From: Pseudofrankia coriaricola
Lineage (GTDB): Bacteria > Actinomycetota > Actinomycetes > Frankiales > Frankiaceae
NCBI RefSeq assembly: GCF_001854805.1
Contig: NZ_MBLO01000243.1
Location: 1-64,000 of the forward strand
Length of the DNA: 64,000 nt
Direction: 5' to 3'
Under the pieces are notes generated by a model. That model saw only the letters and a program-made list of their open reading frames with translations. It was not told the DNA's origin and made no database searches. The translations under genes were made by a program, and so were the position numbers. This document shows positions 12,264 through 18,668 of this stretch, one piece after another; position 1 is the stretch's first letter; each line of letters starts with the position of its first letter.

Positions 12264-13655
12264 TCACGAAGCCGGTGACACGCCGCCAGCGAGCATCGAG
12301 CGGGTCTGGGCGCGGACAGCGCCGACCAGATCGGCATCGTCTGACAGGGCCGGGTCGAGGGCCGCGAGCACCCTCGGCACCGCGTCGGCGAGGCCGCCGG
12401 CGGCGGCCAAGGGCAGGAGCTGGGCGGCGCGAACGTCCGTCACTGGGGGGCCCGATCCGCGCAGGTGCGTCACCCAGGCGGCGAGCGCGGTGACGGCGGG
12501 GGCGGGCAGCCGGCCGCGCTCGCGCTCGCGGCGTAGCACGGGTAGCAGGCGGGCGGGCAGCTTCTGCGAGCCGTCGGCGGCGATCTGCGCCAGCTCGTGG
12601 CGGATCCGCGGGTTGGCGAACCGTTGTAGCAGCGCCTCCCGGTATGCCGCCACGGCCGCCGCCGGCAGCGCCAGGTGGGGAACGCAGGTGTCCCACCACT
12701 CCCCCAGCCACCCACGGCAGACCGGGTCGGCCACGGCCTCGGCGACAGTGGTGTGCCCCCGGGCCGGGGCCGCGTAGGCGAGCAGCGAGTGGGCTCCGTT
12801 GAGCAGCCAGAGCTTGCGGTCCTCGAACGGGGCGACGTCGTCGGTGAACACCGCTCCGGCGCTCTCCCAGGCAGGCCGCCCGCCGGGGAACTCCCCGGCC
12901 AGCACCCACTCCGTGAACGGCTCCGTCACCACCGGCGCGTGGTCGTCGACCCCGGTGGCGGCGAGCACAGCCCGCCGGTCGGCGTCGGTCGGCCGGGGAG
13001 TGATCCGGTCGACCACCGTCGACGCCACGTGGACCTGCCCGTCCATCCACCCGGGCAGGTCCATGTCGACGGCGGCGGCCAGCTCCCGCAGCACCGCGGC
13101 CAGCACGGATCCGGCACGTGGCAGATTGTCACAGGGCACGAGGGTCAGAGGCCCGGCGTCCCGGGATCGTCGCGCCAGCAGGCCGGCCACGAGTCGGGCG
13201 GGCGCCGTGACGACCGGGGCGCGGGGGTCGGCGCGCAGCGCCGCGATGTCGGCGGCGACACGTGGGTCGGCCGTGTCGAGCCCGCCGCCCGCGCCGCGCA
13301 GGTAGCCGGCCTCGGTGATGGTCAGGGTGACGACCCGCACGTCCGGACAGCCGAGGTGGCCGAGCCACGCCTCGTGGTCGGAGCCGGCGTGGGCCCTCGA
13401 GACCGAACGGACGACCGCGAAATCGTCGCTGCCGACACCGCGGGTGACCACGGTGTAGAGGCCGTCCTGGGCGGCGAGCGCCTCGGCGAGGTCCGGGCGC
13501 CGACCGGTGAACGCGGCGATGCCCCAGTCGTCCGCGTCGCTCGCCTGGTCGGTGTACCAGGCCTGGTGGGCGCGGAAGAAGCCGCCGAGCCCCAGGTGCA
13601 CGAGCCGGACAGGCGCCGCCGGGTCCCGCCTGCGCAGCCGTCCAGCCGGGCTCAC
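12264..13655 (-). CDS. uxuB: Mannitol dehydrogenase-family protein, probable D-fructuronate reductase (UxuB), 463 aa
   Basis: Opens with VRLVHLGLGGFFRAHQAWYTDQA, the nucleotide-binding start of polyol-specific long-chain dehydrogenases, and contains LVPCDNLPRAG, DRITPRPTDAD and the catalytic-region LLNGAHSLLAYAAPARGH. The start is GTG at 13653-13655, overlapping the uxaC stop as GTGA and preceded by GGGAGG, rather than the longer open frame to 13913. Position directly after uronate isomerase identifies the likely reaction: NADH-dependent reduction of D-fructuronate to D-mannonate. Tagaturonate or mannitol as substrate cannot be excluded from sequence alone. Confidence 0.86.
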   Translation of the reverse strand: MSPAGRLRRRDPAAPVRLVHLGLGGFFRAHQAWYTDQASDADDWGIAAFTGRRPDLAEALAAQDGLYTVVTRGVGSDDFAVVRSVSRAHAGSDHEAWLGHLGCPDVRVVTLTITEAGYLRGAGGGLDTADPRVAADIAALRADPRAPVVTAPARLVAGLLARRSRDAGPLTLVPCDNLPRAGSVLAAVLRELAAAVDMDLPGWMDGQVHVASTVVDRITPRPTDADRRAVLAATGVDDHAPVVTEPFTEWVLAGEFPGGRPAWESAGAVFTDDVAPFEDRKLWLLNGAHSLLAYAAPARGHTTVAEAVADPVCRGWLGEWWDTCVPHLALPAAAVAAYREALLQRFANPRIRHELAQIAADGSQKLPARLLPVLRRERERGRLPAPAVTALAAWVTHLRGSGPPVTDVRAAQLLPLAAAGGLADAVPRVLAALDPALSDDADLVGAVRAQTRSMLAGGVSPAS

Positions 13656-16886: not shown

Positions 16887-18668
16887 ATGCTGCGCCCCCA
16901 GGACAGTGCCACCCGCGAACGCCGACGCATCGAGGGACTCTGGCTGTTCCGCCTCGACCCCGAGACCCGCGGCCACGAGGACGGCTGGTGGCGCGGCCGG
17001 CTGGCCGAGGCGCGGGAGGTTCCGGTACCTGCCAGCTACAACGATGTGTTCGCCGACGCCGCAACGCACGACCATGTCGGTGACGCCTGGTATCAGACGA
17101 CGGTGCGGGTGCCCCGCGGCTGGGCGGGGCAACGCGTGGCGCTGCGGTTCGACGCGGCCACCCATCGCGCCGTCGTCTGGGTCGACGACGTCGAGGTCGC
17201 CCGGCACGAAGGCGGCTACACCCCGTTCGAGGCCGACATCACCGAACTGGCACAGCCAGGCCACGAGATCCGGGTGACGGTGGTGGTCAGCAACGAGCTG
17301 ACCTGGCAGTCGGTTCCACCGGGCGTCGTCCAGGACACCCCCACCGGCAGGCAACAGGTCTACTTCCACGACTTCTTCAACTACGCCGGCCTGCACCGGC
17401 CGGTCTGGCTGTACAGCACCCCGCGGGCCCACATCAGCGACGTCACCGTCGTGACGGGCCTCGCGGGCGCCGGCGGCACCGTCGACTACCGGGTCGACGT
17501 GACGGACGGCGACGCCCTGGCCGTCCGCGCCGTCCTGACGGATGCCGAAGGAACCGAGGTGGCCAGGGCCGCTGGGACAGCCGGCGTCCTCACCGTGGCC
17601 GACGTACACCCATGGCGACCCGGTGAGGGCTACCTGTACGACCTGCTCGTGGAGGTCATCGACGGCGCCGAGGTGGTCGACGCCTACGCGCTCCCCGTCG
17701 GCATACGCACCGTGGAGGTGCGGGAAACGAAGTTTTTGATCAACGGCGAATCGTTCTACTTCACCGGGTTCGGCCGGCACGAGGACCTGCCCGTCCGCGG
17801 CAAGGGCCACGACGACGTCTTCATGGTCCACGACTTCGCCCTGATGGAATGGACCGGCGCGAACTCCTTCCGCACCTCGCACTACCCCTATGCCGAGGAG
17901 GTTCTGGACTACGCCGACCGGCACGGCTTCGTCGTCATCGACGAGACCGCCGCGGTCGGCCAGAACACCGCCATCGCCAGCGGCATCGTCGGTGGCGGCC
18001 GCTCGTTCTCGACCTTCTCACCCGAGACCATCAACGACGCCAGCCGTGAGGTCCACGCCCAGGCAATCCGCGAACTCGTGGCCCGGGACAAGAACCATCC
18101 CAGCGTCGTGCTGTGGTGCGTCGCGAACGAGCCGGAGTCGACCACACCAGCCTCGGTGGAGTACTTCGAGCCGTTGTTCGCCCTGACCCGCAAGCTCGAC
18201 CCCACCCGGCCGGTCGGCTTCGTGAACATGCTGCTCGCCACACCGGACAAGGACCTGCTCAGGCCCTTGACCGACGTCATCATGCTCAACCGCTACTGGG
18301 GCTGGTACCTCAACACCGGCGACCTGGCCGGGGCCGAGACCAACTGGCAGGCGGAACTCGAGGCCTGGGCCGCCCATGGCAAGCCCATCATCGTCACCGA
18401 GTACGGCGCCGACACCGTCTCCGGGCTGCACACCATGCCCGCGGCACCATGGAGCGAGGAATACCAGGTCGAGTACCTGGAGATGAACCACCGCGTCTTC
18501 GACCGGATCGACGCCGTCGTCGGCGAACACGTGTGGAACTTCGCCGACTTCGCCACCAAGCCCGGCATCATGCGGGTCGACGGCAACAAGAAGGGCGTCT
18601 TCACCCGCGACCGCCGGCCCAAGTCCGCCGCCTTCGCCCTCCGCCGCCGCTGGCGCCCGGCTGCCTGA
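16887..18668 (+). CDS. uidA: Beta-glucuronidase (GH2), 593 aa
   Basis: Strong match to the E. coli GusA architecture: jelly-roll, immunoglobulin-like and TIM-barrel domains. Catalytic Glu415 is in VANEPES and the nucleophile Glu505 in VTEYGAD. The NKKG motif close to the C-terminus, which reads the glucuronate carboxylate, is present in [18 protein letters not shown] and separates it from beta-galactosidases. [15 protein letters not shown] is also typical. The start is the ATG at 16887 with AAGGA upstream; the open frame reaches back to 16776 without a better site. It releases D-glucuronate for the uxaC-uxuB route. Its stop overlaps the next ATG as TGATG. Confidence 0.94.

Follow-up and report, generated by a model that had tools for sequence, protein, structure and literature searches.

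How does a bacterium that appears equipped to release glucuronate from glucuronides and to carry it as far as D-mannonate proceed from there when mannonate dehydratase (UxuA) is missing? This question is raised by a locus of the actinomycete Pseudofrankia coriaricola, found in a 64,000-nucleotide stretch of DNA (contig NZ_MBLO01000243.1, positions 1 to 64,000), the whole of which is referred to below as the window. The locus holds genes for a beta-glucuronidase (GUS), the glucuronate isomerase UxaC, a UxuB-like reductase and a LarA homologue (protein P0001, 441 amino acids), a predicted D-mannonate/D-gluconate 2-epimerase that we refer to as GntE. Judging from the sequences, it is probable that this locus encodes a route from glucuronides to the pentose phosphate pathway in which a nickel epimerase takes the place of UxuA. 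The observed basis is the gene content, the residues of the epimerase, the cofactor genes, the absence of UxuA and of a PF01081 aldolase, and conserved linkage in relatives. An earlier note on this DNA had proposed that glucuronides pass by way of glucuronate, fructuronate and mannonate to gluconate, and genome and neighbourhood tests now lend support to that prediction. We regard the route as supported because the neighbourhoods of relatives spell out the pathway, UxuA is absent, the signature of GntE2 of Thermotoga maritima is kept, and LarC tracks the epimerase.

In the scheme that we propose, the beta-glucuronidase would free D-glucuronate from glucuronides and UxaC would turn this into D-fructuronate. 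Reduction of D-fructuronate to D-mannonate would fall to the UxuB-like enzyme, with a specificity predicted from its surroundings. GntE would then invert C2 and turn D-mannonate into D-gluconate, both substrate and direction being predicted, with the help of a nickel-pincer nucleotide (NPN) that would be made by LarB, LarE and LarC encoded elsewhere in the genome. A gluconokinase and a decarboxylating phosphogluconate dehydrogenase, likewise encoded elsewhere, would carry D-gluconate on to ribulose 5-phosphate. The locus is probably under the control of a repressor of the LacI family that would bind TGGCAAnCGnTTGCCA, the functions of repressor and operator both being predicted.

The central enzyme of this scheme carries a Lar_N domain that scores 76.8 bits with PF09861, against a Pfam gathering cut-off of 23.3. 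Among solved structures, P0001 comes closest to 4nar of T. maritima (E=1.7e-62; 135 of 373 aligned positions identical, 36%), identified in PMC7583248 as GntE2. The alignment bears out the earlier claim that the cofactor residues are in place, with the seven catalytic and NPN positions at D66, R69, H100, H185, K195, H211 and K310. The second catalytic histidine is followed by E186 and V187, and W306 lies in helix 11. A loop Glu-Val/Ser and a helix-11 Trp are described in PMC7583248 as signature features of LarAH groups 18-20, and P0001 has this loop and helix-11 signature of the D-gluconate 2-epimerases (GntE). The seven positions, the Glu-Val and the Trp are invariant in the relatives that have letters there, 78 or 79 of the 80 compared. 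The helix-14 column of GntE2 N348 is occupied by Gly in 76 and by Ser in 2 of 78 relatives; S366 and V367 of the window fall in the columns of N348 and V349, and the published helix-14 Ala/Val feature names no column. P0001 lies outside the curated hexonate epimerase model NF052594 (NPN_18_hexonate, group 18; 165.4 bits against a cut-off of 500), which is nevertheless its best-scoring NCBIfam model. An AlphaFold2 model built from 20 sequences (mean predicted local distance difference test score 82.7) has 4nar as its top PDB match, with a template modelling score of 0.83 and 31% identity, and all 19 PDB matches of the model at E<=0.001 belong to the LarA family. On its domain, residues, cofactor genes and predicted fold, P0001 can be placed in the LarA superfamily.

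All four genes lie at the places given in the earlier note, among them the beta-glucuronidase, uxaC and the divergent LarA homologue. GUS scores 882.7 bits with NF007538 (NCBIfam cut-off 544), aligns end to end with PDB 3k4a (734.6 bits) and retains the GNKKG stretch, and UxaC scores 539.9 bits with NF002794 (cut-off 387) and 477 bits with the solved uronate isomerase PDB 2q01. The claim of a fructuronate reductase stands as to family and is less firm as to name. The UxuB-like protein is a member of the mannitol dehydrogenase family (PF01232 and PF08125 over the Pfam cut-offs), and its NCBIfam scores as D-arabinitol 4-dehydrogenase (248 bits), fructuronate reductase (228) and tagaturonate reductase (160) all fall below cut-off, so the specific name rests on context; in relatives, UxuB occurs in 41 of the 42 UxaC-bearing loci. 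The gntE and GUS genes share the plus strand and are divergent from the uxaC/uxuB-like pair on the minus strand. The members of that pair overlap by a few bases if the start codons, which were judged by eye (ATG at 15207 for GntE and at 16887 for GUS, about 15079 or 15070 for UxaC, about 13655 for UxuB), are correct.

What the window lacks is also lacking in the rest of the host assembly (11.2 Mb, 280 contigs, 99.98% complete). No match to PF03786 was found in it, so that the earlier statement on UxuA holds for the whole assembly and a UxuA encoded elsewhere in the genome is ruled out. A mannonate dehydratase of the mandelate racemase family was also considered and set aside, as the two MR_MLE_C matches of the host were read by eye, without a family scan, as an enolase and an enolase-like piece. 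No 2-keto-3-deoxy-6-phosphogluconate (KDPG) aldolase of family PF01081 is present in the host genome, in which kdgK and an IlvD/EDD-type gluconate dehydratase were not searched for; the suggestion that 2-keto-3-deoxygluconate (KDG) is avoided is thus supported by the missing aldolase and is unproven with respect to the dehydratase. The genes on which the earlier note had made its reading depend are in the genome. LarB, LarC and LarE, all over their NCBIfam cut-offs, lie on contig C259, which rules out a LarA relative without its cofactor. A GntK-type gluconokinase (contig C220) and two NAD-type 6-phosphogluconate dehydrogenases (TIGR00872; contigs C6 and C257) are likewise over cut-off. The host LarE (L105:1489-3060) is in one frame behind a stretch weakly resembling phosphoglycolate phosphatase (43 bits, below cut-off), and it may possibly be a fusion of a haloacid dehalogenase (HAD) domain with LarE. 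A second LarA homologue of the host, of the LarAH14/15/16 family (901 bits), lies on contig C246 (L095:9587-11191); for Frankia LarAH14, PMC7583248 reports none of the tested activities.

The surroundings of gntE in other genomes carry the remaining steps of the route. We compared the best 80 of at least 561 relatives (62-88% identity; contig ends truncate 22 of these loci). Gene presence was scored from tblastn searches that used a single query for each gene, with identity thresholds between 35 and 50% and coverage of at least 35% of the query (queries from locus L052 for the FGGY kinase, L059 for Gnd and GPH, and L086 for UxuA). UxuB was found in 47 of these loci, UxaC in 42, a LacI regulator in 36 and GUS in 26. 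The cofactor genes are frequent as well (LarE in 36, LarB in 35, LarC in 33, all three together in 31), and a gluconokinase-like FGGY protein (18 loci), 6-phosphogluconate dehydrogenase (Gnd; 15 loci) and a GPH transporter (9 loci) complete the picture, so that the neighbourhood check suggested earlier turned up gluconokinase-like, gnd and larBCE genes. UxuA was found by tblastn in none of the 80. Each of the 18 FGGY kinases lies in a UxaC-bearing locus, as do 14 of the 15 gnd genes; nine loci have both kinase and gnd, and three (L048, L052, L059) hold the full gene set including the transporter. The names FGGY gluconokinase and GPH glucuronide transporter are tentative because the specific scores are below cut-off: the best model for the kinase is gluconokinase (389.6 bits, cut-off 648.55), and the GPH protein, over the cut-off of the GPH model, reaches 493.7 bits with the glucuronide-transporter model (cut-off 528). 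At four loci a PfkB sugar kinase lies downstream of uxuB (about 7.0 kb at L026, L038 and L068, about 3.4 kb at L028), where others have the FGGY gene, and one kinase may possibly have been replaced by the other. Kribbella loci (for example L031, L050 and L067) have close GntE homologues that keep the active-site residues, with neither uronate nor lar genes within 10 kb.

In a midpoint-rooted tree of 79 loci and the window (L051 was left out), the uxaC-linked label occurs on both sides of the root and requires 15 changes, at least nine of them forced by well-supported branches. Shuffled labels required 26.8 changes on average, and none of 500 shuffles came as low as 15. The linkage is therefore clustered but does not reflect one recent event, and this clustering, together with uxaC in 42 of the 80 loci, rules out a chance adjacency of gntE and uxaC.

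In UxaC-positive genomes of the class, the epimerase and UxuA were not found together. The sample comprised 295 Actinomycetes genomes, and its figures are uncorrected for shared descent. The epimerase was counted at 48% identity or more, which left 16 genomes out of 19 matched by P0001 (G216, G261 and G170, at 34-35%, were excluded as other LarA relatives); UxuA was counted in the 15 genomes over the Pfam cut-off (the weak matches of G197 and G218 were excluded); UxaC was present in 46, one of them (G168) by a partial match only, and LarC in 70. Among the 46 UxaC genomes, the epimerase is present in 13, UxuA in 11 and the two together in none, an exclusion with a one-sided Fisher p of 0.0145. 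By genus, 8 have the epimerase, 8 have UxuA and none of the 24 has both (p 0.0175). LarC follows the epimerase, being present in 12 of the 13 epimerase genomes, in 0 of the 11 with UxuA and in 1 of the 22 with neither. Those 22 UxaC-positive genomes have neither UxuA nor a P0001-type epimerase. The Corynebacterium glutamicum control matched UxaC and LarC and did not match UxuA.

A distant member of the family joins the epimerase and the kinase in one protein. A plasmid of Saccharobesus litoralis (NZ_CP026605.1, L109:5482-7251) encodes a 589-amino-acid product annotated as gluconokinase in which a GntK domain (TIGR01313, 184.8 bits) precedes, in the same frame, a complete hexonate-epimerase domain (NF052594, 618.9 bits). 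Downstream lie LarE, LarB, a tagaturonate epimerase and gnd. Catenovulum adriaticum has, in one run, uxaC, a tripartite ATP-independent periplasmic (TRAP) transporter, gluconokinase, a LarA epimerase, larC, LarE and larB. The epimerase parts of both are 25% identical to P0001, have the same catalytic and cofactor residues, and, unlike P0001, pass the NF052594 cut-off. The Saccharobesus genome paper cites gntE in Thermotoga, and the words "racemase" and "gluconokinase" are both absent from its main text (PMC7953866). We found no report of a gluconokinase-epimerase fusion in a literature search whose coverage left out most subscription papers.

Taken more widely, these data incline us, by a modest degree, to a picture in which a regulon-encoded NPN epimerase is a regular alternative to UxuA in Actinomycetes, each genome having either the epimerase route or UxuA. 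Glucuronide use by the epimerase route would then depend on nickel and NPN and feed the pentose phosphate pathway, D-mannonate would be the natural substrate of actinobacterial GntE, and the marine group-18 fusion of epimerase and gluconokinase would be a two-step enzyme. We claim the exclusion for the class only, given that T. maritima and Saccharobesus have UxuA alongside such epimerases. The locus sets in its full genetic context a type of NPN enzyme for which the natural substrate of an actinobacterial member was in doubt, a question that is now testable, and a missing uxuA in Actinomycetes should not be taken as inability to use glucuronate.

Three other accounts of the LarA homologue have to be weighed against the epimerase route. 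The enzyme might invert C2 of some other sugar acid, an aldarate or another hexonate, with the adjacency to uxaC marking a side branch of uronate metabolism. Such a role would fit the 32 of 80 homologues that have neither uxaC nor uxuB nearby and the Gly or Ser that relatives and window have in the column of GntE2 N348, and PMC7583248, on the strength of a high Michaelis constant (KM), suggests that group 19 (GntE1) acts on uronic or aldaric acids. We consider it unlikely: the host has no UxuA, and no other mannonate enzyme was found in it. Genes for gluconokinase-like proteins and gnd are grouped with uxaC and gntE, a gluconokinase is fused to the epimerase in a distant relative, and the neighbour clusters that were identified, which are not all of them, include no aldarate enzyme.

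Where the kinase and the fate of gluconate are concerned, the alternatives keep the locus in mannonate metabolism and rearrange its steps. Phosphorylation might come before epimerisation, so that the LarA homologue acts on 6-phosphomannonate; activities in Lactobacillus suebicus extracts suggest this order (PMC6978723) and kinase genes adjoin gntE in relatives, but GntE1, GntE2 and LarAH15 are all reported active in vitro on unphosphorylated D-mannonate, and we hold a kinase-first order to be very improbable. Equally, mannonate might be epimerised to gluconate and the gluconate then dehydrated to KDG instead of being phosphorylated. The PfkB kinases at 4 of the 80 loci weakly resemble KDG-kinase models (below cut-off), and the gene inventory of the host did not extend to the dehydratase and kdgK; yet the host has gluconokinase and phosphogluconate dehydrogenase and no PF01081 aldolase, and three of the four PfkB loci also carry gnd, which makes this ending of the pathway a quite improbable one.

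Several observations nonetheless weigh against the epimerase route or against its generality. Within the locus, the UxuB-like protein scores as a fructuronate reductase no better than as a D-arabinitol dehydrogenase, and the reversed control pattern of the operator motif GGCAANCGNTTGCC also occurs once in the host genome. Among relatives, 38 of the 80 loci have no UxaC and 32 have neither UxaC nor UxuB within reach, all 15 Kribbella loci being among the latter. In the class sample the exclusion of UxuA and GntE is modest at the p values given above, 3 of the 16 epimerase genomes have no UxaC at all, and one genome (G287) has GntE and no LarC match. The T. maritima control matches both UxuA and Lar_N, which shows that one genome can hold UxuA together with a GntE, and the Lar_N search gave no match in the C. 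glutamicum control; since PMC7583248 places GntE1 in C. glutamicum, the Lar_N model may miss members. From the literature, the authors of PMC7583248 doubted mannonate as the natural substrate of GntE1, and a mannonate dehydratase is listed for the Saccharobesus strain, which failed to grow on saturated galacturonate; from this lack of growth the authors of PMC7953866 concluded that the epimerase pathway may be non-functional in it.

Control of the locus is predicted from a palindrome that recurs in it (Table 1). The motif GGCAANCGNTTGCC occurs at three sites in the host genome: two in the locus and a third, on contig C278, that lies upstream of a gene of the LacI family. Allowing up to one mismatch, it occurs 58 times in the best 80 loci (1.5 Mb) against 3 occurrences of the reversed pattern, in 34 of the loci and not in the other 46. 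Orthologues of the C278 regulator lie between gntE and GUS in relatives (83% identity in Parafrankia colletiae). The host has no regulator at this usual place and carries the copy on C278 (L103:2809-4226), where 72 bases left over from the 3' end of GUS come after it, and next to these, genes that are colinear with Frankia nepalensis. The displaced regulator therefore probably acts in trans on the glucuronide locus. Compared with P. colletiae (L003), the window has a 2-hydroxyacid dehydrogenase gene shortened by about 450 bases (9918-10466), and the stretch from the regulator to uxuB has lost about 3 kb (11571-12258), comprising most of the oxidoreductase-like, unnamed and isomerase-like genes.

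Table 1. Features of the glucuronide locus and its flank, in window coordinates.
Feature	Position	Strand	Basis
LarA homologue, predicted D-mannonate/D-gluconate 2-epimerase (GntE, P0001)	15207..16532	+	PF09861, 4nar match, residues, model
uxaC, glucuronate isomerase	13652..15079	-	NF002794 over cut-off; PDB 2q01
uxuB-like mannitol-dehydrogenase-family reductase, probable fructuronate reductase	12264..13655	-	PF01232/PF08125 over cut-off; context
beta-glucuronidase (GUS, GH2)	16887..18668	+	NF007538 over cut-off; PDB 3k4a
TGGCAATCGATTGCCA, a perfect palindrome and predicted operator of LacI type, in the uxaC-gntE interval	15102..15117		pattern search; relatives
TGGCAACCGATTGCCC, second copy of predicted operator, upstream of GUS	16746..16761		pattern search; relatives
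LacI-family regulator, not orthologue of the regulator between gntE and GUS in relatives	10516..11559	+	31% identity to C278 regulator

The host system belongs to an enzyme type and a route that had already been proposed, and the novelty implied by the earlier note was overstated. A path from mannonate to gluconate to 6-phosphogluconate was proposed for Thermotoga by Rodionova in 2012 (cited in PMC6978723 and PMC7583248), and D-mannonate 2-epimerase activity was measured in 2020 for C. glutamicum GntE1 and T. maritima GntE2, with KM values for D-mannonate of 120 and 17, quoted here without units (PMC7583248). A Phytophthora enzyme has been added to the known epimerases (PMC11770544), and a kinase-first variant is described for L. 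suebicus (PMC6978723). Our literature search found no paper linking Frankia with lactate racemase or with glucuronate. We regard the novelty as moderate, since both the enzyme and the pathway had been put forward before and measured in part.

Of the known enzymes, T. maritima GntE2 (LarAH20) resembles P0001 in the seven catalytic and NPN residues, the loop Glu and the helix-11 Trp, and also in a hexuronate gene context with gluconokinase, described in PMC6978723. The settings differ: GntE2 stands in a galacturonate/pectin context, whereas in the host the operon is divergent to uxaC, includes a beta-glucuronidase and has predicted control of LacI type, and T. maritima matches both UxuA and PF01081, neither of which the host has. 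GntE1 (LarAH19) is actinobacterial like P0001, and PMC7583248 gives it a uronic-acid gene context. The Saccharobesus and Catenovulum members of the NF052594 group share the loop Glu-Val and the Trp with P0001, which itself is far below the cut-off of that model. With the canonical UxaC-UxuB-UxuA-KdgK-Eda pathway the host would have the first steps to D-mannonate in common, while UxuA and the PF01081 aldolase are absent from its genome. What is added here is the actinomycete gene context, the exclusion of UxuA within the class and the fusion with gluconokinase.

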